A stretch of DNA of 64,000 nucleotides, from NCBI GenBank assembly GCA_029265355.1, contig JAJUJL010000002.1:1-64000 (forward strand). Direction: 5' to 3'. The stretch comes from Chloroflexota bacterium. GTDB taxonomy: Bacteria; Chloroflexota; Anaerolineae; Anaerolineales; UBA4823. Position 1 is the stretch's first letter. Each line of letters begins with the position of its first letter. The position numbers were made by a program, and so were the translations under genes. Below the pieces are notes generated by a model. It saw nothing but the letters and a program-made list of their open reading frames with translations, had not been told where the DNA came from and searched no databases. Below, piece by piece: positions 10,622 through 32,470 of this stretch.

Positions 10622-10686
10622 CTCGTTCCACCTTTCCAGGCGAGGCCTGCAAGCAAAGAAACACGGCTGGATATTGATTGCCGGGC

Positions 10687-10728: not shown

Positions 10729-10744
10729 TTATCAATGAACAAAA

Positions 10745-11776: not shown

Positions 11777-11854
11777 ATGACCTCCTGCGTAGATTGAATG
11801 AACTGCAGAAATTGACTTGTTGATCTTATTGTACACGAAAGCAGCCAGTTAAGA

Positions 11855-12826: not shown

Positions 12827-12842
12827 GGCGAGCCGTCGCGCC

Positions 12843-16781: not shown

Positions 16782-17603
16782 TTAGATATCCAGGTCGCTG
16801 TACAGGCTGCCCAGGTAGGCTTCTTGCACCGTCTGGTTGGCGGCGATTTCGGCGGGGGTGCCTTCGGCCAGCAGGCGCCCCTGGTGCATCACCGAGATGC
16901 GATCCGATAAGCTCATCACCACGCTCATGTTGTGCTCGACCAGCACGACTGTCTTGCGGTTTTGAGCGCTGGCGGCGACTTCTTTGACCAGGGACATAAA
17001 TTCAGGCACTTGCTCGGTTGCCAGCCCAGCGGTTGGCTCATCCAGCAGCAAGATCTCGTTATCTTGAGCCAGCAACATTGCCAGCTCCAGGCGGCGTTTA
17101 TCGCCGTGCGGCAGCGAGGATACCAGGGAATGCCCGACGCCTGCCAGTCCAACGCGTTCCAGCACCCTCCAAGCGCGCTGTATATAGACATCGAAGCGCT
17201 GATAATGGGTGAGTAGCTTGAAGTTATCTCTGCCCAGGGCTTGCGCTGCCAGGCGCACATTCTCTAAGACAGTCAGGTTGGGAAAAACATTGGTGATCTG
17301 GTACGATCGACCAATCCCCAGGTGGGCGATGCGATGAGCCGGGAGGTGGGTGATATCTTGCCCCTTGAAGATCACTTTTCCCTGGGTCGGTTTGAGCACG
17401 CCGCTGAGCAAGTTTAGAAAAGTGGTTTTTCCTGCGCCGTTGGGACCGATGATCGAGTGGAAATCTCCGCTGGAGAGCTTAAAATCTACTCCATCCACGG
17501 CTTTCAAACCGCCAAAGTAACGCGAAAGCCCCTGCGTTTCCAGGATTGGGGCGGCTGGCGGGGATATTTCCAGGGGCAACTGACCGGTTTCGCCTTCGCT
17601 CAC
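16782..17603 (-). CDS. livG: ABC transporter ATP-binding protein, LivG-like
   Basis: A 273-residue ATPase. Walker A is GPNGAGKTT, Walker B ILLLDEPTAGL, and the C-terminal extension VQEAYLGS is typical of LivG. The ABC signature reads LPHGDKRRLE rather than LSGGQ, a variant common in the LivG branch. Translation starts at GTG 17603. The leader of about 20 residues before the first beta strand is longer than usual. A 13-bp hairpin in the 87-nt gap separates it from the binding-protein gene upstream. Confidence 0.91.
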   Translation of the reverse strand: MSEGETGQLPLEISPPAAPILETQGLSRYFGGLKAVDGVDFKLSSGDFHSIIGPNGAGKTTFLNLLSGVLKPTQGKVIFKGQDITHLPAHRIAHLGIGRSYQITNVFPNLTVLENVRLAAQALGRDNFKLLTHYQRFDVYIQRAWRVLERVGLAGVGHSLVSSLPHGDKRRLELAMLLAQDNEILLLDEPTAGLATEQVPEFMSLVKEVAASAQNRKTVVLVEHNMSVVMSLSDRISVMHQGRLLAEGTPAEIAANQTVQEAYLGSLYSDLDI

Positions 17604-17690: not shown

Positions 17691-19046
17691 TTACTCGCAG
17701 TTTGGCGCGTCGCAAGGTGGAGCCGATTCCTCTGCTGATACCTCGGCCACCTTCTCGAAGAACTTCTCATCGGGATCGTCGATGTTTACCAGGCGCACCA
17801 CATACATCGGCGCCAGGGCCTGGTGATCTCCTGGGCGAATGGTGTAGGTGCCCTTCGGGCCATTGAATGTGAGGCCTTCCAGAGCGGGGATGAGCGCTTC
17901 CCCGCTTGTGTCGCCCATGCTCGCTTCCAGGGCGGCCACGACTGCCTGGGCGGTAGCGAAACCGCATTCGCTGAACAGATCTGGGGGTGTGCCGAAGCGC
18001 TCGATGTACTGTTCGGTCAGATAGTCATTCTCTGCCGTGCTGGGCATGGTGTAGTGGTAGACGATCAAGCCAACTGAGCCGACTGTACCGGCATCCAGCA
18101 GTTTGGTCAGGTCGTTGGAGGAGAATCCTGTGATGAAGGGGATGTTGCCCGTAACGCCCTGGGTGGTGAGCTGGTCGAACAGGATCTGCGCCGAGGTGTT
18201 GCTGGCCCAGATCAAGATCAAGCCATCGGGTTCCAGCGAGAGGATTTGCTGAATGTAGGGAGTGAAATCGGTGGTGTCAGAAGGTGCGAAGATGGGCGCT
18301 TCGGTGAGGAAGGTGGCGCCCATCGCGCCAAAGGTGGCCTGGAAACCCGCCGCGGTGGCCTGGCCAAAGGCGTAATCTTCGGCCAGGATGAGGTACTTGG
18401 TGCCCACATTTTCGATAGCCCACTTGGCAACCGTGGGAGCATCCTGGGCAGAATCGCGACAAACGCGGAAGGTGTAGGGATTCCAGTTCTTGCCGACGAT
18501 ATCGTGGGAGGCAGCGGGAGCGGCGAAGTAAACGATCTCATTTTCATTGGCGATTTGTTGCACCTGGGCGGCAACCGCCGAGCTGGAGTTGCCGATCAAG
18601 ATCTCGACGCCTTCGGACTCGATCAATTCGCGGGCCACGGCTGCTCCGGTCTCGACGTTGCTGGTGTCATCGCGAATGATCAGCTCGACTGGGCGACCGG
18701 CGACGGTCATTGTGCCGCCGGTGGCATAATCGAAGCCAATTTGCAACCCGCTCCACATTTCATTCCCGAACAAGGCTAGAGCGCCAGTCAGGTCAGACAT
18801 GACTCCGATTTTCAGCGGTTCGCCAACTGGCTCTGGGGTAGGTTCGGGTGTGTCAGTGGGTGGGACGGCGGTATCCGTTGGGGGAGGGGCTTCGGTTTTG
18901 ACTGGCGCTTCAGTAATAGTGGGCTCTTCCGTGGCCACAGCTTCCGGAGTCGCTTCAGGGGTCGCTGTCTGGCAGGCGCCTAGCAGCAACGAAGCGACCA
19001 GCAGCAAGCTGGCCAATATTAGAGGGGTGCGGTTACGTGATTTCAT
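17691..19046 (-). CDS. livK: Liv-type ABC substrate-binding lipoprotein
   Basis: A 451-residue lipoprotein. The signal ends in LLLGAC with the lipidated cysteine at residue 25, followed by a Thr/Pro/Glu linker to about residue 75. The mature part is a Peripla_BP_6 fold: KIGVMSDLTGALALFGNEM at the start, LIGNSSSAVAAQVQQIANE in the hinge-side region and DYAFGQATAAGFQ later. The family binds amino acids, but also aromatic and amide ligands, so the gene symbol reflects family only. AGGAGGAG lies upstream of the ATG. The gene is first of the importer genes, 66 nt after the broken hydrolase gene. Confidence 0.9.
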   Translation of the reverse strand: MKSRNRTPLILASLLLVASLLLGACQTATPEATPEAVATEEPTITEAPVKTEAPPPTDTAVPPTDTPEPTPEPVGEPLKIGVMSDLTGALALFGNEMWSGLQIGFDYATGGTMTVAGRPVELIIRDDTSNVETGAAVARELIESEGVEILIGNSSSAVAAQVQQIANENEIVYFAAPAASHDIVGKNWNPYTFRVCRDSAQDAPTVAKWAIENVGTKYLILAEDYAFGQATAAGFQATFGAMGATFLTEAPIFAPSDTTDFTPYIQQILSLEPDGLILIWASNTSAQILFDQLTTQGVTGNIPFITGFSSNDLTKLLDAGTVGSVGLIVYHYTMPSTAENDYLTEQYIERFGTPPDLFSECGFATAQAVVAALEASMGDTSGEALIPALEGLTFNGPKGTYTIRPGDHQALAPMYVVRLVNIDDPDEKFFEKVAEVSAEESAPPCDAPNCE

Positions 19047-19112: not shown

Positions 19113-19922
19113 TTACTGGCGGGTTACAAATTCGATGACCTCCCGGCTGGCAGCTTCCGGAGTCTCTAGGGGGTAGAAATGGCCTGCGCCGGGCAGGATA
19201 ATCACCTGGCTGTTGGGTAGCTGGCGAGCCAACAAGGCGGCATTGCCGGGCGGCACCACTCGGTCATGTTCGCCAAATAAAATGAGCGTAGGCGATTGAA
19301 TGTGGGGCAGCCGACTCTCAAAGGAGGCCGCTTCAGCCAGGAGCGCCAGGCCTATGCCCATTTGCGCCTGGTAGCCTTGCAGATCGATGGGGTGGGCGGC
19401 GCGGTACTGTAGCCATTCTTCAACCACCTGAGGCTGGCGCTGCTCGAAGCCCGGCGCACAGCTAATCAGGATGCCGCGCCTCAGGCGGGTCAGCGGATCG
19501 CTGGTCGTATCTGCGAGCACTGCCATCGCTTCAGGAGTGATGGGAATGTGGCGCGGACCCCCGAAGTTGGTCGCTGAGAGGACCAGTTTATGCACCAGGG
19601 CGGGATATGAGAGGGCCAGCGCCTGGGCAATAAAGCCCCCCATGGAATGCCCCATGATGACGGCTTTCTCGATATCCAGCGCCTGAAGCAGACCGACGGT
19701 ATCGTCTGCCAACATCTGGGCTGTGTATGGCCCGGCGGGTTTATCGCTTTCTCCCACGCCTCGGTTGTCGAAGGTGATCACCTAGAACTTATCCGCCAGG
19801 TAGGGCACCATCTTGTGCCACATCCAGCGATCGTACCCCAGGCCAGCGATCAGTACCAATGGCAGACCTTGACCGTGGATTTCGTACGCAAGGTGTATCT
19901 GGTTGACCTCAATCAAGGGCAT
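19113..19922 (-). pseudogene. Alpha/beta hydrolase interrupted by an in-frame amber codon
   Basis: From ATG 19922, with AGGAGG just upstream, the frame reads MPLIEVNQIHLAYEIHGQGL and continues through LVLIAGLGYDRW, which is the oxyanion region, to codon 46 (KF). Codon 47 (19782-19784) is TAG. The same frame then continues without break as VITFDNRGVGESDKP, the nucleophile elbow MGHSMGGF, the acid GEHDRV and the histidine GAGHFYPLE to 19113, a normal 269-codon hydrolase. A CAG (Gln) to TAG change would explain it. A GTG directly after the stop could restart translation but has no ribosome site and would lack the oxyanion strand. The gene overlaps the ligase gene by 14 nt. It may be a recent pseudogene, a sequencing error, or a readthrough case. 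Confidence 0.8.
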
Positions 19923-21474
19923 GGACACCTCCTGAATCGGATGCAGCGAGCATTGGGTATTGTTTGCGCAGCTCGGACTTCAACACTTTGCCATAGGGCG
20001 AGTACGGCAGGGATGGGATGAAAATCAATTGTTTGGGTATTTTGAAACGAGCCAATTGTCCGGAACAGAACTCGAGCAGCTCTCTCTCGCTGGTCTGAGA
20101 ACCGGCTTTAAGCTGGATGAAGATGACGCCCACCTCACCCCACTTTTGGTCCGGCACCCCAATCAGGGCAGCGTCGGCCACTGCAGGGTGCTGGCGGAAG
20201 ACCGCTTCGACCTCCGCGGCGTAGATGTTCTCGCCACCCGACTTAATCATGTCTTTATAGCGTCCCACGATGTAAAAGAAGCCATCCTCATCTTTGCGCG
20301 CCATATCTCCGGTGTGGAACCAGCCATCCCGAATGGCGCTGGCGGTTGATTCAGGATCGCGCCAGTAGCCCGAACAGACATGTGGGCCAGAGATCAGCAA
20401 CTCGCCAGTCTCGCCAGATGGCACATCCGCGCCTGTCTCTGGATCGATCAACCGCATGCGGCTGTGGAAGATGGGCTTGCCAACCGAGCCGGATTTTCGC
20501 AGCGACTCTTCATCGGTCATGCTGAAGCAATTGGTGCCCACCTCGGTCAGCCCGTAGCCCTGGCGGAATACAACGCCTTTCTGCTGGCGCCAGTGCTGCA
20601 TCAACGACACCGGGCAGGGAGCGCCGCCTGAAATGAAGAAGCGTACCCGGCTGAAATCGGCTGATGTGAAATAGCCGGTCTCTTGCCACATCTGGAACAG
20701 GGTTGGTACGCCCAGGATAACCGTGCAGTTCTGCTCCACGATGGCGTGCAGCGAGGCATCGGCTTCGAAGGTGCGCGCCAGCACCAGGCGACCGCCAACG
20801 TAAACGATGGGCGTCAGAAAAGCGAATAGACCGCCGGCGTGAAACAGCGGTGTGAAGATCGGCGAGACATCTTTTTCGGTCAATCCCCAGGAAATCACGG
20901 TATTGATGCAGTTCCATAAAATCTGTCGGTGGGGCAGCACCGCTCCCTTGGGATGCCCCGTAGTGCCCGAGGTGTACAAAATGCAGTAAGGGTCCTCTCC
21001 ATCCAATGGGGGGCGCTGCGGTTCGCTAGGGCGGCTGGCGGCCAGCAAGATCTCGTAAGAGGAAGCCCCGGGAATTTGCGCCCCTTCCACGCTCAGAACT
21101 TGGGGAAGATCCATCTCTGCGCGCATCTCTGCCAGGGTGTTGGCGAATTCTGGACCGCACAGGAGTAACTTTGGTTGGTTGTCGTTGAGAATATACCGCA
21201 GCTCATGCGCGGTGAGCCGCCAATTGAGAGGGGCAAAAATGGCGCCAATCTTGGGCAAGCCAAACAGCAGGTCGAAGTAGATGGGACTGTTATGCGCCAG
21301 GATCGAGACCCGGTCGCCTTTTTGGACGCCGAGCTGCGTTGCCAGGTTTGCCAGGCGGCAAGCGCGCTCGTTCAGGTCAGCATAGGTGAAACTGCGCCCG
21401 GTGTGCAAATCCTTGAGGGCGATGCGGTGCGGCGTTAATTCCGCCCGCCTGGTCAGCAGGTCAGCAGCGTGCAT
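19909..21474 (-). CDS. Acyl-CoA synthetase (AMP-binding family)
   Basis: A 521-residue adenylate-forming enzyme that would activate a carboxylic acid to its CoA thioester with ATP. The P-loop-like core is YTSGTTGHPKGAVLPH (residues about 168-183), the adenine-binding motif RQGYGLTEVG follows, then GWFHTGDMARKDEDGFF, and the hinge/catalytic region KDMIKSGGENIYAAEVE; the final catalytic lysine lies in YGKVLKSELRK. The length and motifs fit medium/long-chain fatty acid or aryl acid ligases. It follows the SDR gene by 12 nt and overlaps the broken hydrolase gene. A similar ligase lies at 26142-27698. Confidence 0.9.
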   Translation of the reverse strand: MHAADLLTRRAELTPHRIALKDLHTGRSFTYADLNERACRLANLATQLGVQKGDRVSILAHNSPIYFDLLFGLPKIGAIFAPLNWRLTAHELRYILNDNQPKLLLCGPEFANTLAEMRAEMDLPQVLSVEGAQIPGASSYEILLAASRPSEPQRPPLDGEDPYCILYTSGTTGHPKGAVLPHRQILWNCINTVISWGLTEKDVSPIFTPLFHAGGLFAFLTPIVYVGGRLVLARTFEADASLHAIVEQNCTVILGVPTLFQMWQETGYFTSADFSRVRFFISGGAPCPVSLMQHWRQQKGVVFRQGYGLTEVGTNCFSMTDEESLRKSGSVGKPIFHSRMRLIDPETGADVPSGETGELLISGPHVCSGYWRDPESTASAIRDGWFHTGDMARKDEDGFFYIVGRYKDMIKSGGENIYAAEVEAVFRQHPAVADAALIGVPDQKWGEVGVIFIQLKAGSQTSERELLEFCSGQLARFKIPKQLIFIPSLPYSPYGKVLKSELRKQYPMLAASDSGGVHALD

Positions 21475-21486
21475 GCCAGCGCCTCG

Positions 21487-22251
21487 TCAGGTGCCGACGA
21501 CAATGCCGCCATCGACTCGCAAGGTATCTCCGGTGATAAAACTGGCTTCATCGGAGGCCAGAAACACATAGGCGTTGGCGATATCGCGCGGTTCGCCCAG
21601 GCGGCCCAGCGGCGTGCGCGCCTTCATGTTCTCCAGAATCTTCTCTGGCATGGCAGCGACCATCTCGGTGGCTGTGAAACCGGGGGCGACGGCATTGACG
21701 CGAATGTTGTACCGCCCCAACTCGCGCGCCCAAACCTTGGTCATGCCGATCACACCAGCTTTGCTGGCGACATAATTGGTTTGACCAAAGTTGCCATCCA
21801 GCCCAACCACGGAGGTGGCATTGAGAATGACGCCGCCACCCTGGCGGATCATTACCGGAGCAACCGCCTGGCTACAGTTGAACACGCCTTTCAGGTTGAC
21901 GGCGATGACCTGGTCGAACTGCTCTTCGGACATCTGGGATATCAACTGGCCTTCCTTGACCTTGACCAGCAGACCGTCACGCAGGATGCCTGCGTTGTTC
22001 ACCAGCACATCAATGCGTTGGTAGCGCGCCATAACCTCATCGATCCAGGCCTGCACTTCCTGGCGGTCAGCGACGTTGACTTTGTAGAACGTGCAGCGTT
22101 CGCCGATCTCCTGGGCTGTCTGTTGACCTGCCACCTCATTTAGGTCGCAGATGACCACTCTTGCGCCTTCTTCGGCGAAGCGCAGGGCGGTGGCTTTGCC
22201 GATGCCGGCTGCGCCTCCGGTGATCAGAGTGACTTTATCTTTCAGACGCAT
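21487..22251 (-). CDS. Short-chain dehydrogenase/reductase, FabG-like
   Basis: A 254-residue classical SDR. The cofactor motif is TGGAAGIGKA, the structural NNAG is present (VLVNNAGILRDG), and the catalytic Ser and Tyr-Lys are in NATSVVGL and YVASKAG. Such enzymes reduce 3-ketoacyl or oxidise 3-hydroxyacyl thioesters. ATG 22251 has GGAGG four nt upstream; a TTG 12 nt earlier was rejected. Its placement between a KAS III-like gene and a CoA ligase suits acyl-CoA metabolism. Confidence 0.88.
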   Translation of the reverse strand: MRLKDKVTLITGGAAGIGKATALRFAEEGARVVICDLNEVAGQQTAQEIGERCTFYKVNVADRQEVQAWIDEVMARYQRIDVLVNNAGILRDGLLVKVKEGQLISQMSEEQFDQVIAVNLKGVFNCSQAVAPVMIRQGGGVILNATSVVGLDGNFGQTNYVASKAGVIGMTKVWARELGRYNIRVNAVAPGFTATEMVAAMPEKILENMKARTPLGRLGEPRDIANAYVFLASDEASFITGDTLRVDGGIVVGT

Positions 22252-22269
22252 AGTTCCTCCCAATGTGAC

Positions 22270-23325
22270 TTAAGCTTCTGACGGGCCCCAGCGCACGATG
22301 CTGGCGCCCCATACGTAACCGATACCTGCGGCGACGATGGCCATCAAGTCGCCGTCTTTCAAGCGCCCGGTTTTCAAACCTTCGGAAATGCTGAAAATGG
22401 CATCCTGTTCACCGATGTGACCGATATGCCCCAGGTAGGTGGATTGCTCCTCAGTCAGCCCCAGGTGCTGCAACATCTCGCGATGAGCCGAGGGCTTGAT
22501 CAGCAAGATATTGAGATAGCCCAGGTCGGAACGCCCATAAGCGCCTCCGCCGGGTTTGTTGCCGCTTTTGCGCAGGGCTTCGTCCACGCAGTGCAGCCAA
22601 TTTTTCATAGATACCTGGTTCAGGCGCTCCTTCATCGCTTCTGGTTCCAGCAGATCAAAGTAAAACAAACCCTGGGCGACTGCCTGATCGGTAGGGAACT
22701 GCACGGTGCCAGAGGCTGGCACGATCACGTGGTTGCTCATGTAGCCGTCGCTCATCAGGTGGGAGCCAAGCACCTGGTTGCGCGGCCAGTTGCGGCGCAG
22801 TAGCAGGGCGCCAGCGCCAGCGCCGATATTGAACATGAACGAGGTGCGGGTGTTTTTCAAGTTAATAAAATCGCCCACTCGGTAACCGCCAGCGATCAGG
22901 ATGGTGTTGATTTCCGGGTCAGCGATCATCATATCGCGCGCCAGCTTGAGCGCCCCGACAGTGGTAGCGCAGCGCATGTGCAAATCCATGCCCCAGGCGT
23001 TGGTCGCCCCGATCTCGTACGCCAGGTTGACGCCCGCCGTCCACAGTGTATATTCTTTCCATTCCTCGGTCGTGCACAGTACGACGTCGATCTCTTTCGG
23101 GGCGATATCCGTCTTCGAGAGGCAGTCCTGCGCAGCCCAGACTGCCATGCGGTTGGGGTGGTCGTTTGGGCCAGCCATGTGTTTTTGGGTGATGCCCAGC
23201 TTTTCACGTACCACCCATTCTGGCAGTCCCGAGATGGAGGCAATTTCAGCCGCGGTCAGCACCACTTCTGGCAGGTAGGTGCCGAAGCTGGCAATCCCAA
23301 CAGAAAAATTCTCCACACCAGACAT
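22270..23325 (-). CDS. KAS III/HMG-CoA synthase-like thiolase-fold protein
   Basis: A 351-residue thiolase-superfamily protein. The nucleophile is C119 in HMRCATTVGA, and TTEEW (E87, E88) falls where HMG-CoA synthases place their catalytic Glu. The usual His of FHQAN is not present; the equivalent stretch reads LIKPSAHREM (K277, H281 near), and the second conserved Asn position is taken by H303 in GHIGEQ. The end YVWGASIVRWG fits KAS III. It lies six nt after the DUF35 gene, which itself follows a thiolase, the same trio that forms the archaeal thiolase/HMG-CoA synthase/DUF35 complex. True activity is open: condensation, acyl transfer, or an HMG-like synthase. Confidence 0.75.
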   Translation of the reverse strand: MSGVENFSVGIASFGTYLPEVVLTAAEIASISGLPEWVVREKLGITQKHMAGPNDHPNRMAVWAAQDCLSKTDIAPKEIDVVLCTTEEWKEYTLWTAGVNLAYEIGATNAWGMDLHMRCATTVGALKLARDMMIADPEINTILIAGGYRVGDFINLKNTRTSFMFNIGAGAGALLLRRNWPRNQVLGSHLMSDGYMSNHVIVPASGTVQFPTDQAVAQGLFYFDLLEPEAMKERLNQVSMKNWLHCVDEALRKSGNKPGGGAYGRSDLGYLNILLIKPSAHREMLQHLGLTEEQSTYLGHIGHIGEQDAIFSISEGLKTGRLKDGDLMAIVAAGIGYVWGASIVRWGPSEA

Positions 23326-23331
23326 AAGCGT

Positions 23332-23760
23332 TCAACTCAGGGGGCGAAAAGCCAGGACGGTGCTGCGCTTTTCGCCATCACCTTGATCGATGAAATCCAC
23401 CACCAAAGGTTGGCCAATTGAAATGCCTTCCGGATGAGCGGCATCCAGCCCCAGCAGGCGAGCGCTGATTTTGGGCCCCTCCTCCAGCTCGACTACGCCG
23501 GAGAGGTAAGGATTCTCGCGCCCGTAACCGGCCTGCGCCATGACAGTGGGTGGAATGAAGACCGAGGTGAAGCCTGCCAGGCGTCCCCGACCGCTGAACT
23601 CCACCCAGGTCATCTGTGCGCTGCGACAAGCCGGGCAGATCGCTCGGGGAGGCAGGTGCATGGCCCCGCAGGCCGCGCAGCGCGATCCCATCAGCCGGTG
23701 AGCGGAGAGGTGTTGCTGGAAGGAGGCGTGGGTAAAGGGTAGCATTGTCGTTTCGTTCAT
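23332..23760 (-). CDS. Zinc-ribbon OB-fold (DUF35) acyl-CoA-associated protein
   Basis: A 142-residue DUF35 protein. The rubredoxin-like zinc ribbon uses C28, C31, C42 and C45 (RCAACG and ICPACRS), followed by the OB-fold acyl-CoA-associated domain with WVEFSGRGRLAGFTSVFIPP. DUF35 proteins pair with thiolase-like enzymes, as in archaeal HMG-CoA synthesis and in steroid side-chain degradation (ChsH2 with Ltp2). The gene is between the thiolase (12-nt gap) and the KAS III-like gene (6-nt gap), supporting a three-protein complex. Confidence 0.88.
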   Translation of the reverse strand: MNETTMLPFTHASFQQHLSAHRLMGSRCAACGAMHLPPRAICPACRSAQMTWVEFSGRGRLAGFTSVFIPPTVMAQAGYGRENPYLSGVVELEEGPKISARLLGLDAAHPEGISIGQPLVVDFIDQGDGEKRSTVLAFRPLS

Positions 23761-23772
23761 GCCAGGCTCCTC

Positions 23773-25041
23773 TCAATTTTTGCGTTCGTAGATGTGCACC
23801 ACGCAGGTAGATCCTGTAGCGCCCACATTGTGCGTCAGGGCAAGGGAAACATCTCCCTTCAGTTGGCGCTCGCCGGCCAGCCCGTGCATCTGCTTGAAAA
23901 CCTCCACGGCCTGAGCTATGCCGGATGCGCCAACGGGGTGTCCCTTGGATTTCAAGCCTCCGGAAACGTTGATAGGCTTGGCGCCGTTGCGAGCGGTCAC
24001 GCCGTCTTCCGCCATCTTATAGCCATCGCCCGGAGGGAAAAAGCCCAGGTCTTCGGTGGCGACGATTTCGGCGATGGTGAAGCAATCATGAACTTCAGCG
24101 AAGCGGATATCTGCCGGGGTGACGCCCGCCATTTGGTAGGCCTGCTGAGCAGCGTTGCGCGCCGCGCTCAGCGTGGTGAGGTCGGACCTGCCATGCAGTG
24201 GTACATCCGAGGCCTGCCCGGAGCCAATAATGTAGATAGGGTGGTCGGTGTAGTCTGCAGCGCGTTCGGCAGAGACGAGCAGTAGAGCGGCGGCCCCGTC
24301 GGTGATCGGTGAGCAATCGAACAGGCGCAATGGCCAGGCGATCATCGGGTTGGCAGAGTCATCGTGCAAGAAATCCCAAACGTTCTGCCAGGTGGGGGCG
24401 GGCTTGCCCTTCTTGATGGCAGCCGCAATCCTGCTTTGCATCCAATCCGAAATGCTGACGCCAAACTGTGCATTTGGATTGAGCGCGCCGTTCTCATGGT
24501 TTTTGATGGCGACGTTCATCAGGTGTTCAGGGCGCATGCCATACCGATGCATATACGCTGTGGCGATGGCGGCATAGAAGCCTGGGAAGGTGAAACCAGC
24601 GGGAATTTCATACTGCGTGTCAGCGGCGGTCGCCAGGGCGTCGGTGACTTCGGCGGTGGGCAAGCTGGTCATTTTCTCCGCCCCGCCAACCAGCACCACA
24701 TCGTACATACCGGAGGCCACCGCCATGACCCCCTGGCGCAGCGCTACGCCGCCGCTGGCGCAGGCATCTTCGACGCGGACAGCGGGAATGGGCGTCAAGC
24801 CCACGGCTTCCGCGATGAGCGGCGCAGTGTGACCCTGATGCTCGAACAACTCACTTGAGAAATTGCCCAGGTAAAGAGCTTCGATGGCCCTGGCATCCAT
24901 GCCCTTGCTGGCGGAGCTCTCCATGTCAAGGAAGGCTTCGACGAACAGATCGCGGCTGGATTTGCCCGGGAAAGCGCCAAACTTGCTGATGCCAGCCGCT
25001 ACGATGGCAACCGGGCGTGGCAGAGATCTTGTTGCAGGCAT
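23773..25041 (-). CDS. Thiolase-family protein (SCPx/archaeal type)
   Basis: A 422-residue thiolase. The nucleophile is C94 in EDACASGG, the catalytic histidines are H318 in EVHDCF and H368 in KSKGHPVGASG. The C-terminal CxG motif of biosynthetic thiolases is replaced by THNVGATGST, as in SCPx-like and archaeal members that work with DUF35 partners. It would either cleave 3-ketoacyl-CoA or make acetoacetyl-CoA. It is followed at 12 nt by DUF35 and then the KAS III-like gene. Confidence 0.88.
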   Translation of the reverse strand: MPATRSLPRPVAIVAAGISKFGAFPGKSSRDLFVEAFLDMESSASKGMDARAIEALYLGNFSSELFEHQGHTAPLIAEAVGLTPIPAVRVEDACASGGVALRQGVMAVASGMYDVVLVGGAEKMTSLPTAEVTDALATAADTQYEIPAGFTFPGFYAAIATAYMHRYGMRPEHLMNVAIKNHENGALNPNAQFGVSISDWMQSRIAAAIKKGKPAPTWQNVWDFLHDDSANPMIAWPLRLFDCSPITDGAAALLLVSAERAADYTDHPIYIIGSGQASDVPLHGRSDLTTLSAARNAAQQAYQMAGVTPADIRFAEVHDCFTIAEIVATEDLGFFPPGDGYKMAEDGVTARNGAKPINVSGGLKSKGHPVGASGIAQAVEVFKQMHGLAGERQLKGDVSLALTHNVGATGSTCVVHIYERKN

Positions 25042-25052
25042 ACCCTCCCTCC

Positions 25053-26123
25053 TCAGGAATTTTCAGCTAGAAAAGCAGCGAAAGAAGCCATGAACACTTC
25101 AGGTTTTTCGATGTAAGGGGAGTGACCGGTGTCGGTTATCACTACTTCCCGGTAGCTGCCGCCCTGGGAGGCGTACTGATTGAGAATCGAACGCACCTGG
25201 CTGACCATGGGCTGGGGCGGGTAAACCTCCGCGCCAGGCCAGCCGGGCACCAATCCCAACTGTCCCAGTGTACCAAAATCGAATAGGGAATTATCGGAGA
25301 CAATCTGATCCGAGTCGCCCCGCACCCACAGGAAAGCAGGCTTAGGCTGGACTGCCAGGAAGCGCTGGACAAAATCGCCAACATACTTAGGTGAGAGGGC
25401 GTTGATGGGTCCCCACTTGCCCGGGGCAACATGCGGCCAGTTGGGGGAGGCAACGAAGTCACCAGGGTAGCGATCCGGACCGATCTTTTCCGTCAACAGC
25501 GAGGAGAGCAGGTCTTCCTCGCGCTGTGGCTTAAAGGGGGGTTTCCAATAGAAGGCGTTCATCACCACCCGCGGTGAAGCCTGTGGGTTGTCGCTGGAGC
25601 GATCGCCGACGGCGATCAATTTCGGGAACTCTGGGTTGACAATGCCGCCGCCTGATCCGGCAAAGTCGTCGTAGCACGGTGAGCCATCCAATCCTTTGCT
25701 GCCGCCGAAGCCGTACGGCGAGCCCGGATTGACCACGGTGGCAGAGAGCACGTTAGCGCTGTCAGCGGCGACGATGGCAAAAACGATGGTGCCGCCCATC
25801 GAATGCCCGACCAGGTGGTATTTTCCAATTCCCAGGGCGGCTTTCAGCGCCAGGAAGTCATCGACCCAGTCGCCCATGCCACGCTCGGCGTTGATGAGCA
25901 GGTCCTCGGTATCGCCGTAGCCGCGCAGGTCCGGCGCCAGGCCGCGCATGCCGGCGGGCAGTTTGAGCATGATCTCTTCCCAGTAAGTTGCTGACGAGGC
26001 GTTGCCGTGGAAAAAGATGACGGGAACATCTGTGGTCGAACCATGCGAGAGCAAGTGGATTTTCAGGCGGGAGGTGGGCACAATGGTGGAAGTAATTCCA
26101 GGTAGGGTGGGTACGGTTGGCAT
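25053..26123 (-). CDS. Alpha/beta hydrolase
   Basis: A 356-residue hydrolase. The oxyanion motif is FFHGNASS (HG at 39-40), the nucleophile elbow is LVGHSMGG (S108), and the histidine lies in ITDTGHSPYIEKP near the C-terminus. A long insert of about 80 residues (NPGSPYGF to SPKYVGD) between strands makes it longer than typical members. The acid residue is probably in WVRGDSDQIV. ATG 26123 is chosen since AAGGAG lies nine nt before; a TTG at 26132 touches the site. It sits between a CoA ligase and the thiolase. Possible roles are thioesterase or ester/lactone hydrolase; none is provable. Confidence 0.83.
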   Translation of the reverse strand: MPTVPTLPGITSTIVPTSRLKIHLLSHGSTTDVPVIFFHGNASSATYWEEIMLKLPAGMRGLAPDLRGYGDTEDLLINAERGMGDWVDDFLALKAALGIGKYHLVGHSMGGTIVFAIVAADSANVLSATVVNPGSPYGFGGSKGLDGSPCYDDFAGSGGGIVNPEFPKLIAVGDRSSDNPQASPRVVMNAFYWKPPFKPQREEDLLSSLLTEKIGPDRYPGDFVASPNWPHVAPGKWGPINALSPKYVGDFVQRFLAVQPKPAFLWVRGDSDQIVSDNSLFDFGTLGQLGLVPGWPGAEVYPPQPMVSQVRSILNQYASQGGSYREVVITDTGHSPYIEKPEVFMASFAAFLAENS

Positions 26124-26141
26124 GGCAATCAACTCCTTATT

Positions 26142-27698
26142 CTAATCTTCGGTAGATTGTATGAACTGCTGGCGCAGCTCTCGCTTGAGAATCTTTCCAG
26201 CAGCCGAGATAGGCAGGCTCTGCAGGAAAGCGATGCTGCGTGGCACTTTGTACTTGGCAAGGCGCTGGGATAGGAAGTCCAACAGCTCTTGTTCCTCAAC
26301 CTGGAAACCAGGTTTGAGCACGACACAGGCTTTACCAGCTTCTCCCCATTTGGGATCGGGGACGCCGATCACTGCGCACATGTGCACCGCGGGATGCTGG
26401 TACAGCGCTTTCTCGATCTCAGCCGGGTAGATATTTTCCCCGCCGCTGATGAACATGTCTTTCTTGCGATCAACGATATAGAAATACCCCTGTTCGTCAT
26501 AGCGGGCGATATCGCCGGTGTGGAAGTAGCCAAGCTCATCCACTGCCGCCGCGCTGGCTTGCGGATCGTTGAAGTAGCCCGAACAATAGGATGGGCCTTT
26601 CAGCACCAATTCCCCGTCTTGATTGGGTCCGAGGTAAACGCCTTGATCATCGACAATTTTGGCGTCCACGAAGAAATTCGGGCGACCAATGGAGCCAGCC
26701 TTGCTAATGGCGTCTTCAGGCGCCAGGGCGAAGATGCCCGGACCAAACTCGGTCATGCCGAAACCTTGTTTGAAGCGAATGCCCTTTTCACGCGTGTACT
26801 GTTCGACCAGCGGCACCGGCAATGGCGCGCCGCCGGAAGTGCAGAAACGCAGGCTGGAAAGATCAGCAGTTGGCCAGTTCTTTGCCTGTGTCAGCATCTG
26901 GTACATGGTTGGCACAGCGGCGAAAATTGTCACTTTCTCTTGTTGCAGCAGGTCCAGCACCTGCACCGGATCGAATTGGCGGATCAGAATGGTGACGCCT
27001 CCAAAAATGACCTGGGGCAGCGTATAGACGAACAGCCCTCCGGTGTGGAACATCGGAAAGACGTTGAGATAAATATCGTTGTGGGTGACATCATGGATGA
27101 CTGTGTTCAGCGTATTCCAGGCGATCATGCGATGCGAGACCTGAGCTGCTTTGGGCAAGCCGGTGGTTCCGCCGGTAAAGATCAAAGCGGCAATATCCTC
27201 AGCCTCCAGAGTCTCACAGGTGACCGGCGAATCCGGGGAGTGATCGAGCGCAAATTGATAGGCGGTGCTCTCCGGCAAACCAGAGCCCTCGAGATGCAAC
27301 AATTTCAGGTGAATACCTGTGGAATTGAGATACTGGGCAGCAATTTGCTCCACATCGGACCTGAAATCATCCGAGTGAATCAGCGCCAGCGGCGTGACTT
27401 TGGTGAAAATATCTGCTTGCTCGCGCCAGTGCAGACGCCAGTTGAGGGCCGTGTGAATAGCGCCCAGTTTGCTGCAGGCGAAGAAGACGTCCAGGTGTTC
27501 CACACCATCGCGCGCCAGGATTGCCACACGATCGCCCTTTTGCACCCCGTTTGCTCTCAGCCAGTTGGCCAGGCGGTTGGCGCGTTGGTTGAACTGGCGA
27601 TAAGTCAGCCTGATCTGCGGAGTTTTTCCAGCATCAACGATCGCCAGGTGATTTGGCGAATAGAGTTCCCTTCGAGCCAGGTAATCGCCGATGTACAT
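26142..27698 (-). CDS. Acyl-CoA synthetase (AMP-binding family)
   Basis: A 518-residue adenylate-forming ligase. The core motif is FTGGTTGLPKAAQVSH, then FKQGFGMTEFGPG, GYFHTGDIARYDEQGYF and KKDMFISGGENIYPAE; the C-terminal lysine is in AAGKILKREL. The first motif has G for the usual S (GGTTG), a known variant. The start is MYIGDYL at 27698, one nt after the KAS III stop, with GGAGG six nt upstream; an upstream extension lies inside the KAS III gene and was rejected. It is paralogous in layout to the ligase at 19909-21474. Confidence 0.9.
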   Translation of the reverse strand: MYIGDYLARRELYSPNHLAIVDAGKTPQIRLTYRQFNQRANRLANWLRANGVQKGDRVAILARDGVEHLDVFFACSKLGAIHTALNWRLHWREQADIFTKVTPLALIHSDDFRSDVEQIAAQYLNSTGIHLKLLHLEGSGLPESTAYQFALDHSPDSPVTCETLEAEDIAALIFTGGTTGLPKAAQVSHRMIAWNTLNTVIHDVTHNDIYLNVFPMFHTGGLFVYTLPQVIFGGVTILIRQFDPVQVLDLLQQEKVTIFAAVPTMYQMLTQAKNWPTADLSSLRFCTSGGAPLPVPLVEQYTREKGIRFKQGFGMTEFGPGIFALAPEDAISKAGSIGRPNFFVDAKIVDDQGVYLGPNQDGELVLKGPSYCSGYFNDPQASAAAVDELGYFHTGDIARYDEQGYFYIVDRKKDMFISGGENIYPAEIEKALYQHPAVHMCAVIGVPDPKWGEAGKACVVLKPGFQVEEQELLDFLSQRLAKYKVPRSIAFLQSLPISAAGKILKRELRQQFIQSTED

Positions 27699-27699
27699 A

Positions 27700-28713
27700 T
27701 TACCCCTCCATCGTCCAGCGCCAGACGGAGGCAGCCATCGCCATACCACCACCGGTGGCACAGAAGACCACATGATCTCCGGGTTTGGGGCCAACCCCTT
27801 TTTCAAGCGCGTCGTGGAGCGCGGCTGGAATGCAGGCCGATCCCAGGTAGCCCCATTTGTCCATGATGGTGTGTGTCTTGGACATCGGCTGCCCCAGGTT
27901 CGCCATGACATACTCGATGGTGCGCAGGTTGAGCTGGGTAAACAGGAAGAAATCGATCTCGTCCAGGGTCAGGCCAGCCTTGGCGACCACCGAGCGCACC
28001 AATGGAGGCCATCTTTCGCTGTTGAACGTGGCTGGAAACTTGCGCACGAATTGTACCCTGGGTTTGCCCAGTTCAGAGACAACTTCTAGGGTCGCTGGAC
28101 GAAAGGTGCCGCCGGTGTAAATGCCGAGGGCGTCGTGATAACTGCCCTCTGCCTGCAATTTTCCACTCAGAAAGCCGGGTTGCTCACCGCGCGAGACGAT
28201 GACCGCTGCAGCGCCATCAGCGAAAAGTGTGCAGGTGTACTTGTCGCTCCAATCGAGGAATTTGGTCATGCCGTATGCGCCGACCACCAGGATATGATTC
28301 AGCTCCGCATCCGTAAGAATGTAACGGGCAGCCGCATCCACTCCAGTGACCCAGGCAGCGCAGGCGCAGTTGATATCGTACGTGCCCGCATTGACTGCGC
28401 CAAGCTTTTGCTGGACGGCGGAGGCGGTGGCTGGACTGAGGTAATCGGGCGTATCGGTGGCAACGATCACCAGATCTAACTCACCCGCCTCAAGCCCGGC
28501 GCGTTGCAACGCCTGGCGGGAAGCCGCAGTCGCCATATCGGAGGTGGTCTCATCCGGCGCCATGATGTGTCGCTCGCGGATGCCCACATTCTCGACCAGC
28601 CAATCGGAAACGTTTTGTCCCAGGATGCGATCCAGCTCCTGGTTGGTCAACACTTTTTCGGGTATGTATAATCCTGTGGCGCTAATTTGGGCTGCTTTTT
28701 GCATAGGCTTCAT
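27700..28713 (-). CDS. KAS III-like protein with substituted His/Asn
   Basis: A 337-residue protein of the FabH family. The N-terminal GLYIPEKVLTNQELD and the nucleophile C118 in INCACAAW are clear. Aligning by the flanking residues, the HQAN motif reads TQLN (T259 in place of His) and the NYGN motif reads KWGY (Y289 in place of Asn), while IPAAL and the C-terminal GGGMAMAAS are kept. Without His and Asn the decarboxylating condensation of FabH is unlikely; an acyl-transfer or partner-dependent role is more probable (inference). It is the first enzyme gene of the run; the CoA ligase starts one nt after its stop. Confidence 0.82.
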   Translation of the reverse strand: MKPMQKAAQISATGLYIPEKVLTNQELDRILGQNVSDWLVENVGIRERHIMAPDETTSDMATAASRQALQRAGLEAGELDLVIVATDTPDYLSPATASAVQQKLGAVNAGTYDINCACAAWVTGVDAAARYILTDAELNHILVVGAYGMTKFLDWSDKYTCTLFADGAAAVIVSRGEQPGFLSGKLQAEGSYHDALGIYTGGTFRPATLEVVSELGKPRVQFVRKFPATFNSERWPPLVRSVVAKAGLTLDEIDFFLFTQLNLRTIEYVMANLGQPMSKTHTIMDKWGYLGSACIPAALHDALEKGVGPKPGDHVVFCATGGGMAMAASVWRWTMEG

Positions 28714-29110: not shown

Positions 29111-32100
29111 CTATTGGTTGCGGGTCAATTGCTGGTAAAGTAAGTTTGTCTCGTGTGAGGGCTCCACGTCCAGGTCTTGACGCAGCGCATGCAAGCAGCG
29201 CTGGTAAGTCCGCGCCACTTGGCCGCGGTCGCCAAGCTGGTGATAAGCCAGCATCAGCATGCGGTAAGCGCGCTCCCAACACGCGTCCTGCTCAAGAATT
29301 CGGTGACAGATATCTATACAGTCTTTCGGTTGGTCGATCTCGAGCATGGTGGAGGCCAGTTGATCAGCCAGGTGAAGGAAAGCTACAGCAATCCGTTCGC
29401 GCTCTGCGGCTGCCCAGGTTTCATAGCGGGCGTCCGGCAGATACTCGCCCTGGTATAGCGCCAGCGCTCGATGAAGGTGTTCCAGGCGGTTTGTTTTGCC
29501 AGGCGAGCGTTTGGAGGAGGGTAGTGCTGCGTTATTTATGGATGTTTGTTGGTACAGATCGAGCAATTCTTGAGCATCGATCCACAAGTCGGCCTCGGGA
29601 CGCAGGCCGTATAGGCTGCCCTCGCGAAAGATATAAGAAGATTCCCTGCCCGGGTCGCGCTCAGGTTCGAGCACCTGAAACAATGTGTTCAAGGCCACTT
29701 TGAAACTGCGTTGGGCAGCGACTGGGTCCTGAGAGGGCCATAAAAACTCGATAATCTGTTCGCGATCGAGTGGGGTCTTGCGGAATGTGACCAATACCTG
29801 TAGAAGCTGGCGAGCTTTTTCCCGCCGCCAGCCGTTGGAAGGGATTGGGTGGAGACCACGCCAAACCTGGAAACTGCCCAATGTCTGAATGCGTAAGCGG
29901 TAGCCGGGATGGCTGCGGGCATTCTCAAGACCAAGCTCTGCTAACAATCGCTCGGCATAGTCAGCTTCCCACCCCTGATTATGGGCAATAATCAGCAGGG
30001 GTGTAAATAAGCGCTCATCTGTTGGTCCCAGCAAAGTTGGCCTGGTAAAGATAAAATCATACTCATTCTGGCGACAGGCTGCCAGCGCTCGCGGCAAGGC
30101 GGCCTCGAGCAGGCTGATGCGCTGCTTCTCGTCCAGATCTTTGCGGCGTTGCCAGGTCTGGCACAGCCAGATACGGGTGATGGCTTGCCCAAAAGCGTCG
30201 CTGCACTCCTGAAAGCCACGCAAGGCCAGGTTGAGCCATTCTTCAGCCTGCTGAAGATCGTATTCAGGATGAGGATCTTCGGCATTCGATCTTTCCAATT
30301 GGGCCAACCCGCTGCCCATGGCCAGGCGTGCCAGTGAGGCTACCCATTCATCTCCTGCCTGGGAGGCAATTTCAACTGCGCGCTGAGCATAGCTCAGGGC
30401 TCGTGGGATATCTCCCTGGTAGCCATAACTCCTGCACAATCCCCAATAGGTTTCGGCGAGCAGGCGGGGCACAGCCAATTGCTGGCTGATTTCTATCGTG
30501 CGTTCGAATTGGCGGCGTGCGGAGGAGAAATTTTCACCCATATTGAGCAGCATCAAAGCATGCCCCTGGCGGATATGTCCCACCGCATTAATGAATGGCG
30601 AGTGCAGGTCAGTGCCGCGCTGGGTGCCTTCCAGGGCTGCTTCCAGCGCCCGTTCTCCGAAACCCTGGAGAGAATAGACCAGGGATAGCAGGAGCAGCGT
30701 CTCGCGATGGGCACGTGGGGTGTGTACAGGCTGGCTCCGCTCGGATGCGGCGAGCGATTCCAATTGTTGGCGGGCTTCATTCAATCGCCCGGTACGCAGC
30801 AGTACGCGCAAGAGAAGCTGCGAATCAGAAGGCGCTTCGGTGCGCAAAGCTTCAGCCTGCTGGCGCAAACGTTCGGCATCCTCGACTTTTCCGGCATTCA
30901 GACGGTTCTCCGCCAATAGTTCGTACAGGCGCACTTGCGCTTCGCGATCTTCGATGCCATCGCTCAGGCGAATCGTTTGTTGCAAAATTTCTTCTGCCTT
31001 GCTGGGGTTGACCGTATCTAGATAAACGCGCGCCTGGCCGCGCAGCGCTCGCAGCGCGCCTTCGATCAAGCCGCGCTGGCGACAAATTGTCTCGGCCTGC
31101 TGGTACCATGCCAGGGCTTCCGAAAACCGGCTGTGCAGGCGCGCCAGGTCACCGTGCAATGAGAGCAGTACAGGATGCATGCGCAGCGCCGAGGGAGGCA
31201 GTGCATCCAGGTAGCTGGTGAGCGTATCCAGGCGACCCACACCGAGAAGTTGAGGGCCATAAGCCTCGAGCAGCTTTGCCGCGCCGTCTGTATCCTGGGC
31301 TTGCAGGCGGTGGTAGATTGCTGGATCAAAGTCCTGGTTAGCCTCGTAGTGCCGCGCGGCCAGGCTGTGCCAGTGGATACGCTGCTCGGCAGTGGAGGCC
31401 TGGCGGAGAAAATCGTGAAAGATATTGTGATAGCGCAAGCGAAGCGATGCGTCAGAGTGGGATCCATACGCGCCCGCATCAGTAGAATGGCCCAGGTCGA
31501 CAACGAACAGGTCCTGGCGGCGGAGATAAGCCAGCATAGCAGCGCTATCCTTTTTTTCACGCAGCGCGTCGCAGGCGCTGGCTGTCATTTCCCGTAAAGT
31601 GGCAGAAATAAGCAGGAAATCTTGCACATCGGGAGGTTGTAAATCGAACGCCTCCCTGGCGAGCAGCTCGAACAGACTCTCCAATGAAGCTGCGGGACGA
31701 GCCAGGAAGTTTTCCAATGTTGCGGCTGTTGCGCCCGAGGCAGCAGAACGCAAACTTTGCCAGACGAGCTGCACAGCAATCGCCCAACCTTCGGTGTAGT
31801 TATGCAAAGCTTCGGCTTCTTCGGGGGTGAGCTCGTAACCGTAATGGCGGGTAAAGAGTGTGGCGATCTCTTCGGGTGTAAATGCCAGCATGGACTGGTC
31901 GATAAAAAATACCGATCCCATTGCCTTCCACCTGGAAAGATTGGGCAACTTAAAGGGGGGGCGAGTGGCGACGAGGATATGCAAGTGGGCTGGGCTGAGG
32001 CTGATGAGCCGGTCCAGGAGAAGTGCGATTTCTGGGGATTCACTTACCAGGTTGAGATCATCTACCGCCAATATAACCGGTTGCGAAGTAAATTCGCTGA

Positions 32101-32470
32101 TCGAGTTCAATATCTGGTCTAAGACAGCCGTTGTTGGAAGTGGTCCCTGGGAGCTATCCCAGGTTTCCAATAAGGGAAGCGGGAGACCTGGCAAGCCTGG
32201 GAGAGCCAGGCTCACCGCGCCGCACAGGTGCATTAAGAAAACCAGCGGATCTGCATCTTCTTCACTTAACTGATACCACACCAAAGGGTAACCAAGCTCA
32301 ACCAGGTTGGCAAGGGCGGTGGTTTTTCCATAGCCTGCCCCGGCCTGGATGACCGTCAAGCGGTGGGATAGCGCCTGCTCCAGAACGGCTTGCAGGCGCG
32401 GGCGCACCAATGTGCGTGGACTGCGCGCGGGTGGAGTGATTTTGGTGCGCAAGACGATTGGCAGTGCCAT
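29111..32470 (-). CDS. MalT-like NTPase with TPR array and SARP/BTAD DNA-binding end
   Basis: A 1119-residue regulator. The N-terminal STAND NTPase has Walker A QAGAGYGKTT (about 42-51) and Walker B VILAVDDLNLV (about 132). Residues about 380-830 are helical, TPR-like, with repeats such as ALAWYQQAETICRQRG. The C-terminus holds an OmpR-type winged helix (from about 859, LRIQTLGSFQVWRG) followed by a BTAD domain (about 962-1119). Proteins of this plan act as ligand-gated activators. It lies upstream of the small gene and the acyl-CoA/Liv run on the same strand, so it is a good candidate for their regulator (inference). ATG 32470 is the first sensible start. Confidence 0.88.
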   Translation of the reverse strand: MALPIVLRTKITPPARSPRTLVRPRLQAVLEQALSHRLTVIQAGAGYGKTTALANLVELGYPLVWYQLSEEDADPLVFLMHLCGAVSLALPGLPGLPLPLLETWDSSQGPLPTTAVLDQILNSISEFTSQPVILAVDDLNLVSESPEIALLLDRLISLSPAHLHILVATRPPFKLPNLSRWKAMGSVFFIDQSMLAFTPEEIATLFTRHYGYELTPEEAEALHNYTEGWAIAVQLVWQSLRSAASGATAATLENFLARPAASLESLFELLAREAFDLQPPDVQDFLLISATLREMTASACDALREKKDSAAMLAYLRRQDLFVVDLGHSTDAGAYGSHSDASLRLRYHNIFHDFLRQASTAEQRIHWHSLAARHYEANQDFDPAIYHRLQAQDTDGAAKLLEAYGPQLLGVGRLDTLTSYLDALPPSALRMHPVLLSLHGDLARLHSRFSEALAWYQQAETICRQRGLIEGALRALRGQARVYLDTVNPSKAEEILQQTIRLSDGIEDREAQVRLYELLAENRLNAGKVEDAERLRQQAEALRTEAPSDSQLLLRVLLRTGRLNEARQQLESLAASERSQPVHTPRAHRETLLLLSLVYSLQGFGERALEAALEGTQRGTDLHSPFINAVGHIRQGHALMLLNMGENFSSARRQFERTIEISQQLAVPRLLAETYWGLCRSYGYQGDIPRALSYAQRAVEIASQAGDEWVASLARLAMGSGLAQLERSNAEDPHPEYDLQQAEEWLNLALRGFQECSDAFGQAITRIWLCQTWQRRKDLDEKQRISLLEAALPRALAACRQNEYDFIFTRPTLLGPTDERLFTPLLIIAHNQGWEADYAERLLAELGLENARSHPGYRLRIQTLGSFQVWRGLHPIPSNGWRREKARQLLQVLVTFRKTPLDREQIIEFLWPSQDPVAAQRSFKVALNTLFQVLEPERDPGRESSYIFREGSLYGLRPEADLWIDAQELLDLYQQTSINNAALPSSKRSPGKTNRLEHLHRALALYQGEYLPDARYETWAAAERERIAVAFLHLADQLASTMLEIDQPKDCIDICHRILEQDACWERAYRMLMLAYHQLGDRGQVARTYQRCLHALRQDLDVEPSHETNLLYQQLTRNQ

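Follow-up and report, generated by a model that had tools for sequence, protein, structure and literature searches.

Thiolases are found in partnership with DUF35 proteins in BbsAB, an SCP2-type thiolase and DUF35 pair that acts on a bulky substrate, and Liv-type importers can transport aromatic acids. Amongst relatives of 3-oxoacyl-acyl carrier protein (ACP) synthase III (KAS III), the Cys-His-Asn triad of FabH and the His of HMG-CoA synthase (HMGCS) are catalytic residues. The catalytic Cys and Glu of HMGCS are treated in PMC6392133, whilst the steroid aldolases Ltp2 and Sal, as characterized in the relevant portion of PMC12329534, carry a YDHF or YDCY motif and are missing the nucleophilic Cys. 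PhaA and BktB of Haloferax mediterranei, going by the account in PMC7137286, are two-subunit thiolases with an OB-domain β subunit that feed polyhydroxyalkanoate (PHA) synthesis. Here we describe a thiolase–DUF35 pair from a Chloroflexota bacterium (contig JAJUJL010000002.1, positions 1 to 64,000; this stretch of 64,000 nt is referred to as the window), located within nine minus-strand genes in the order KASa, LigA, HydA, thiolase, DUF35, KASb, SDR (short-chain dehydrogenase/reductase), LigB and HydB, beside a Liv-type importer. The thiolase retains an intact active site, and the same pair closes PHA operons in two relatives. We consider it an even prospect that this operon serves the uptake and thiolysis of short 3-hydroxy or 3-oxo acids, most likely acetoacetate-like acids or 3-hydroxyalkanoates, the latter as PHA monomers or short oligoesters.

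The thiolase and DUF35 form a conserved pair

The window thiolase was detected (E ≤ 1e-130) in 39 of 396 class genomes, including its own, and we compared the surroundings of the 38 others. Neighbourhoods were defined by a mechanical open reading frame caller and homology to window proteins, such that, given start codons, short genes and contig ends, all counts are lower bounds. Three of the 38 loci (L102, L103 and L104) belong to genomes that bear two numbers each (G313 and G497, G314 and G537, G301 and G573), with identical coordinates and scores, and the thiolase set shares some genomes with the KASb set considered below. DUF35 was the next gene in 37 of the 38 loci, and in the remaining one the contig stops 71 bases past the thiolase match. 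The two are one unit, a pair.

The active site of the window thiolase is intact, with Cys94, the HDCF motif (His318 and Cys320) and His368 all present; it thus has the nucleophilic Cys, HDCF and GHP-type His of SCP-2-type thiolases. These positions are near-invariant (≥ 90 %) in the thiolase alignment and altered in the two other paralogues of the genome. One of these lies in a mevalonate locus (C27, L096:7990-9210), between the genes for HMGCS and a DUF35 protein, and lacks the Cys nucleophile as well as two of the catalytic His residues, having Gly for the Cys, Asn for the last His, and Tyr and Ala within the HDCF-type motif; the window thiolase is longer than this paralogue by a loop of ∼26–30 aa. 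The other, a DUF35-linked thiolase (C31, L095:9114-10304), carries Pro instead of the Cys, together with an HDAF motif. To judge from these residues, both paralogues may be structural partners only. The best PDB sequence match of the window thiolase is chain A of 6esq, and the best match of its DUF35 partner is also 6ESQ. Identity as a steroid aldolase of the Ltp2/Sal type was rejected, as HDCF and Cys94 are present rather than YDCY or YDHF with Gly.

As a separate observation on DUF35, inspection by eye of 21 orthologues aligned with that of the window (two own-genome paralogues excluded) revealed seven (L037, L039, L044, L045, L103, L132 and L153) in which the zinc-ribbon cysteines are lost and the OB part is kept.

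The pair in relatives with CoA-transferase or PHA genes

Seven loci (L126-L129, L152, L154 and L156) share a compact cassette consisting of an SDR, a KASa relative (41-46 %), a gene of 430-477 aa, the thiolase, DUF35 and LivJ; they have no ligase match and no KASb, and a regulator gene is present in all save L154, which starts at the SDR. For the copy in L127, Pfam identifies a family-I CoA-transferase, with an NCBIfam match to TIGR03948 (304 bits, cut-off 675). The copies in L126, L129 and L156 read like that of L127, and those in L128, L152 and L154 were judged from size and position only. Next to the L127 thiolase lies a gene of 108 aa for which Pfam, at the limits applied, gave no family. 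The cassette can also sit on a plasmid, the same compact arrangement being found on CP069395 (L169), a 180-kb record from Chloroflexota strain ZRK35.

In two further genomes, G574 and G504 (L146 and L141), the thiolase–DUF35 pair (thiolase 66 and 65 %) ends a class III PHA operon of phaE, phaC and a phaB-like gene. The respective scores were 175 and 154.5 bits for PhaE (cut-off 154.95, the second being just under), 485 and 475 bits for PhaC (cut-off 365), and 340 and 331 bits for the PhaB-like SDR, under its cut-off of 436. An alternative view of this block as steroid-type hydratase and dehydrogenase genes was rejected, as Pfam identified PHA synthase genes. Upstream lies a relative of the window SDR (59 and 52 %, respectively); such 52-59 % relatives occur beside four PHA operons, and relatives of the regulator upstream of the window operon recur beside the cassette in related genomes as well as beside three PHA operons. 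In the thiolase tree, the G574 and G504 enzymes are nested among cassette thiolases as sister to that of G568, a genome with a full cassette inside which lie two PhaC-like genes (24 and 34 % to the L146 PhaC; the second 362 bits against a cut-off of 365.3). PhaC-like genes lie within the cassette of G568 and divergent to a full cassette in G594 (L161, L162).

PhaC (E ≤ 1e-80) was present in 14 of 375 class genomes, above the cut-off in 10, and we viewed the loci of nine of these 14, G504, G574, G568 and G594 among them. In G597 and G615 the PHA operon includes relatives of the regulator and of the SDR, with no window-type thiolase there, and the pair was not found in the stretches viewed for G468, G486 and the PhaC-like locus of G533; the G533 C17 stretch contains a regulator relative. 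The presence of the pair in PHA operons, together with the two-subunit ketothiolases of Haloferax, points to a role as a short-chain ketothiolase.

KASb is not a constant partner of the pair

The initial annotation had proposed a trio of thiolase, DUF35 and KASb, after an archaeal channelling complex with an HMGCS-like third protein, a reading under which the three genes should stay together in relatives. For KASb this did not hold. Whole-genome searches of the 38 thiolase-bearing genomes recovered a KASa-type protein (E ≤ 1e-66) in 28 and KASb (E ≤ 1e-40) in 14, whilst locally KASa was found in 18 of the 38 loci and KASb in six, with a contig-cut KASb in L139 falling below threshold and many loci ending at contig edges. 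For the nine loci with 8 kb on both sides the numbers were five and three, respectively. Across the 395 non-own genomes, and with ancestry ignored, Fisher odds ratios were 18 for thiolase–KASa, 8.9 for thiolase–KASb and 13.7 for KASa–KASb, at thresholds of ≥ 265 bits for KASa-type proteins (which drops weaker FabH-like matches) and ≥ 399 bits for KASb. Other genes within the fetched stretches of the 38 loci included a Liv binding protein (25), a hydrolase (27) and an SDR (20).

The gene order itself was sought in other genomes and seen in L147 (G581), which reproduces it from KASa through LivJ, the last hydrolase being closer to HydA than to HydB. L130 (G661, same bacterial order) has KASa-LigA-HydA-thiolase-DUF35-SDR-LigB-HydB-LivJ, which is the window order without KASb, its KASa being truncated at the contig edge; a whole-genome search of G661 (E ≤ 1e-40) gave no KASb match. 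The Ignavibacteriota loci L037 and L044 contain the same eight gene kinds in a different order, alongside genes of 525 and 564 aa that have no Pfam match within the limits set. As the gene set recurs in L037, L044 and L147, the grouping is not due to chance. Based on the co-occurrence counts and the KASb-less operon of L130, however, we rejected the trio as a conserved unit. A mevalonate role was likewise rejected, as a separate trio with a true HMGCS exists elsewhere in the genome.

KASb instead belongs to a different association. The PRK06840 family, to which it is assigned, was found above cut-off in 25 of 301 phylum genomes, its own included. We compared 51 KASb loci, comprising 27 from a scan of named genomes and 24 others, with its own locus excluded and L046 and L052 being one genome. 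Genes nearby on the same strand included a ligase (43 loci), a hydrolase (41), Liv genes (27), a thiolase (six) and DUF35 (four). For 30 more distant loci (≤ 500 bits) the corresponding numbers within the fetched stretch were 28, 26, 21, 0 and 0. On four haloarchaeal plasmids (L085-L088) a KASb-family gene, annotated merely as 3-oxoacyl-ACP synthase, directly follows a Liv permease in all four regions; an AMP-binding protein is found in three of the stretches, accompanied in two by an alpha/beta hydrolase and MaoC. From these distant and plasmid-borne neighbourhoods, KASb is part of a Liv importer–ligase–hydrolase module that is wider than its association with the thiolase.

A different KAS-like protein was found beside related thiolases of haloarchaeal plasmids. 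In L170 (7167-8597) and L171 (9173-10612), the thiolase (41.9 and 44.8 % to that of the window) is directly followed by a protein of 476 or 479 aa, with a C-terminal zf-ChsH2 domain and an HMGCS-like N-terminal part (127 and 161 bits with PRK04262, below its cut-off of 244). In L172 an OB-fold protein of 128 aa comes after the matched thiolase (45.5 %), and another thiolase gene is followed by one for a protein of 481 aa (12653-14098) that matches zf-ChsH2 and OB. No active-site Cys was seen by eye in these three proteins of 476-481 aa. KASb gave no phmmer match to any of the three; with KASa, two of them matched, at 28 and 12 bits. A KAS-like domain can therefore be tied to DUF35 beside such thiolases, but it is HMGCS-like, unlike KASa and KASb. 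In view of these fusions, a thiolase–DUF35 complex may include a KAS-like subunit.

KASa and KASb have rebuilt active sites

Both proteins pass curated family cut-offs (Table 1). KASa scored 256.2 bits with NF006829, above its cut-off of 249, and 226 bits with the fabH model TIGR00747, under 292. On the archaeal HMGCS model TIGR00748 (cut-off 353), KASa and KASb scored 43.9 and 34.5 bits, compared with 542 bits for the true HMGCS of the genome, and by this model neither is an HMGCS. Profile comparison gave E-values of 2e-53 (KASa) and 1e-36 (KASb) with the genome's own FabH, and of 3e-9 and 9e-14, respectively, with its own HMGCS.

The HMGCS Glu position was located on the genome's own HMGCS using MAFFT and, for KASb, also hhalign. 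All 27 KASa sequences share Asp87, Cys118, Thr259, Gln260 and Tyr289. Compared with FabH, Cys118 is kept, His is replaced by Thr259 and Asn by Tyr289, leaving KASa without the Cys-His-Asn triad of a KAS III enzyme; Asp87 occupies the HMGCS Glu position. In KASb, Glu88 (29 of 35 sequences) and Cys119 (32 of 35) correspond to the Glu and Cys of HMGCS, Lys277 and His303 are found in 35 of 35, and the FabH Asn position is His. Position 275, that of the FabH and HMGCS His, is His in 22 of 35 and Leu in 13, the window protein having Leu275. A quick tree of 60 rows placed KASb and KASa rows in two groups, and its starred group of 16 rows, which includes the window KASb, has members without His at 275 according to the residue lists.

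The AlphaFold2 (AF2) model of KASb retrieved BioZ, FabH and PqsC as top rows at Z ∼38, and that of KASa retrieved FabH rows at Z ∼46 (root-mean-square deviation 1.5-1.8). Foldseek and VIA-align together listed FabH, BioZ, PqsC and PqsD amongst other KAS III structures, as well as OleA in the Foldseek search with KASb, and no HMGCS or PhlA structure was among the best 50 rows per search, which excludes nothing. As the Cys is retained but its catalytic partners are replaced, KASa (Asp-Cys-Thr-Tyr) and KASb (Glu-Cys-Leu-His) are probably not ordinary condensing enzymes; either could act as an acyl-Cys transferase or a structural partner. Both are unstudied relatives of fatty-acid synthases with rebuilt active sites.

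Proposed function and alternatives

In the proposed pathway, acids would be imported by the Liv-type ABC importer, and oligo-esters or thioesters would be cut by the alpha/beta hydrolases. LigA and LigB, typed to family, would make the CoA thioesters, with the CoA-transferase presumably taking their place in some relatives, and the SDR, likewise typed to family, would oxidize 3-hydroxyacyl-CoA to 3-oxoacyl-CoA. The predicted thiolase–DUF35 enzyme, given its intact residues and conserved pairing, would then convert 3-oxoacyl-CoA and CoA to acetyl-CoA and acyl-CoA. Pfam typing found neither an acyl-CoA dehydrogenase nor a hydratase among the operon genes of the window, and 3-hydroxylated substrates, which bypass both enzymes, would explain this absence. 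The substrate is what we infer here; a short-chain ketothiolase is the best-supported step, and uptake of 3-hydroxyalkanoates or acetoacetate the best-supported pathway. The initial annotation had suggested uptake, CoA activation and condensation or thiolytic cleavage, and had judged the operon not to be plain β-oxidation. Import, activation and thiolysis, as well as the latter judgement, agree with family typing, the thiolase residues and the relatives with PHA operons or CoA-transferases; the trio as a unit is the part that fell away.

Several observations weigh against an uptake-and-thiolysis function. The ligases, hydrolases and Liv protein are typed to family and not to a compound, no PhaC match (E ≤ 1e-80) was found in the window genome, and the pair lies inside a PHA operon in just two of the 38 thiolase loci. 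Some close homologues, in L134, L135, L138 and L153 (as well as L132, which is cut upstream), show thiolase–DUF35 without other window-type same-strand genes in the fetched stretch. An enoyl-CoA hydratase is added in L039, L056, L059 and L073 (the last also with MaoC), and haloarchaeal regions with KASb or the related thiolases include acyl-CoA dehydrogenases, hydratases or PaaK, which fits ordinary β-oxidation as well. Furthermore, two ligases and two KAS-like proteins exceed the needs of simple 3-hydroxybutyrate use.

The hydratases of these relatives, and the haloarchaeal dehydrogenases, hydratases or PaaK, would suit general acyl-CoA salvage or β-oxidation of branched, aromatic or cyclic acids, with the dehydrogenase and hydratase encoded elsewhere and the thiolase acting on alpha-branched 3-oxoacyl-CoAs like BbsAB. 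The ligases have FadD3-like matches, below cut-off, and pairs of an SCP2-type thiolase and DUF35 handle bulky substrates, with Ltp2 and Sal as examples in the relevant portion of PMC12329534. We nevertheless regard salvage as unlikely, given that the two enzymes are not among the operon genes, that the substrate in the two PHA operons would be a short unbranched 3-oxoacyl-CoA, and that the BbsA and BbsB models scored 36 bits (cut-off 250) and 152 bits (cut-off 750), which places the pair outside BbsAB. Less likely again is a channelling complex of thiolase, DUF35 and KASb that condenses or cleaves acyl-CoAs in the manner of archaeal HMGCS or PhlABC. The three genes are adjacent in the window and L147, Glu88 and Cys119 fall on the HMGCS positions, KASb and thiolase co-occur more often than expected (at the odds ratio given above, with ancestry ignored) and haloarchaeal HMGCS-like/zf-ChsH2 fusions (three proteins, two of them typed as HMGCS-like) adjoin thiolase genes. 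KASb is, however, missing from 24 of the 38 thiolase genomes and from the order retained in L130, its 30 distant loci show neither thiolase nor DUF35 in the fetched stretch, it is much nearer to FabH than to HMGCS by hhalign with Leu for the HMGCS His, and none of the fusions matched it.

A biosynthetic operon, in which imported acids are activated, condensed by KASa and KASb and reduced by the SDR to a lipid or signal, seems very improbable. The combination of two ligases with a FabG-like SDR and a pair of KAS III-like proteins does recall the logic of PQS- or polyketide-type pathways, and BioZ, PqsC and FabH are among the best rows for the KASb model. Against this, the FabH His is replaced by Thr in KASa and by Leu in the clade of the window KASb (though 22 of 35 KASb keep it), the Asn is replaced in both, no carrier protein is present among the typed genes, the transporter is an importer and not an exporter, and the thiolase retains a thiolytic signature. 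As a tentative further reading, which we consider doubtful, KASa (with LigA or the CoA-transferase) could be the true third partner of the pair, forming a DUF35-linked assembly with a KAS subunit derived from FabH and not from HMGCS; its new Asp-Cys-Thr-Tyr site would perform acyl-Cys chemistry without decarboxylation, such as opening or forming 3-hydroxyacyl esters in a CoA-dependent manner. KASb (Glu-Cys-Lys-His) would be a second such invention, serving similar bacterial and haloarchaeal import modules.

If uptake and thiolysis is the correct function, it would give a defined diet (bioplastic monomers or similar hydroxy or keto acids) to largely uncultured Chloroflexota and to the Ignavibacteriota that share the cassette. 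PRK06840 and the FabH-like family, annotated as condensing enzymes, would then belong to catabolic import modules, and '3-oxoacyl-ACP synthase' labels would be misleading. A useful natural experiment would also be at hand, as the same pair belongs to a catabolic cassette in some genomes and, in two others, to an operon for PHA synthesis.

Organization of the locus

DNA coordinates and hmmscan confirmed the nine-gene order first described, with its tight gaps, single overlap and neighbouring transporter genes. Using likely starts, the spacings from KASa to LigB are, in gene order, 1, 18, 11, 12, 6, 18 and 12 nt; LigB and HydB overlap by 14 nt, and HydB lies 66 nt from the Liv binding protein, beyond which two ATPases and two permeases complete a five-gene Liv importer. 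The interval originally assigned to the run, 21487-28713, holds seven of the nine genes, with LigB and HydB falling outside. Every family assignment is backed by hmmscan, HydB being typed from the portion after an in-frame TAG at 19784-19782; as sequenced, this gene is either broken or the base is a sequence error.

Table 1. Genes of the operon, its importer and the upstream regulator in the window
Feature	Coordinates	Strand	Details
Regulator-like protein, 1119 aa, BTAD + MalT-like TPR	29111..32470	-	Upstream of nine-gene run, same strand; Pfam BTAD 70.8 bits
KASa, FabH-like	27700..28713	-	NF006829 256 bits (cut-off 249); AF2 pLDDT 90.4
LigA, acyl-CoA ligase, AMP-binding + C-terminal domain	26142..27698	-	PF00501 279 bits; start 27698, 1-nt gap to KASa
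HydA, alpha/beta hydrolase, GHSMG nucleophile elbow	25053..26123	-	PF00561 + motif
SCP2-type thiolase	23773..25041	-	NF004720 456 bits (cut-off 420)
DUF35, zf-ChsH2 zinc ribbon + OB fold	23332..23760	-	PF01796 + PF12172
KASb, PRK06840-family KAS III-like	22270..23325	-	NF005308 429 bits (cut-off 315); AF2 pLDDT 94.7
SDR, FabG/PhaB-type 3-oxoacyl reductase or 3-hydroxyacyl dehydrogenase	21487..22251	-	NF004198 289 bits (cut-off 296)
LigB, second acyl-CoA ligase	19909..21474	-	PF00501 320 bits; 42 % identity with LigA
HydB, second alpha/beta hydrolase, TAG-interrupted	19113..19922	-	Pfam on post-stop part
Liv-type substrate-binding protein	17691..19046	-	PF13458 229 bits
Liv-type ATPase, LivG-like	16782..17603	-	
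Liv-type ATPase, LivF-like	16050..16754	-	
Liv-type permease, LivH-like	15035..16045	-	PF02653 124.5 bits
Liv-type permease, LivM-like	13713..15035	-	PF02653 115.7 bits

The downstream flank (8141-13712) encodes an AlkZ-like protein, a 323-aa gene product without a Pfam match, a fructose-1,6-bisphosphatase and a LonB-like protein, and the upstream flank (32538-34817) a Ser/Thr protein kinase; both are seemingly unrelated.

Comparison with known systems

Our literature searches found nothing uniting thiolase, DUF35, 3-oxoacyl-ACP synthase and operon, and nothing on this gene set among the top-ranked matches listed. By its best PDB matches, the window pair resembles the archaeal acetoacetyl-CoA thiolase/DUF35/HMGCS complex (6ESQ), but neither KASa nor KASb is an HMGCS by the curated model, the three genes do not stay together and the true HMGCS trio is separate in the genome. 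The gene content of thiolase, DUF35 and a KAS-like protein is that of the PhlABC Friedel-Crafts acylase of Pseudomonas protegens; PhlA, however, going by what PMC6392133 gives for it, carries Gly where HMGCS has its Cys, and Cys where HMGCS has its Glu; the corresponding residues are Cys118 and Asp87 in KASa, and Cys119 and Glu88 in KASb. BbsAB, Ltp2-ChsH2 and Sal-Shy likewise join a thiolase-fold subunit to a DUF35 partner, and in those systems a KAS subunit is absent. The window pair differs from BbsAB in its low BbsB score, and from the other two in having no aldolase signature. KASb and KASa are like PRK06840 and FabH/KAS III, respectively, in passing the family cut-offs and in their FabH-like fold, whilst the replaced triad in both does not support the condensing function that these labels imply. 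Unlike the haloarchaeal two-subunit ketothiolases, for which PMC7137286 gives Ser-His-His, the window thiolase has a Cys nucleophile, and its genome combines the absence of a PhaC match with extra ligases, hydrolases, KAS-like proteins and an importer. As with PhaA-alpha/beta and BktB-alpha/beta of those archaea, however, the thiolase and OB-domain genes are adjacent, and in two relatives the pair lies within a class III PHA operon.

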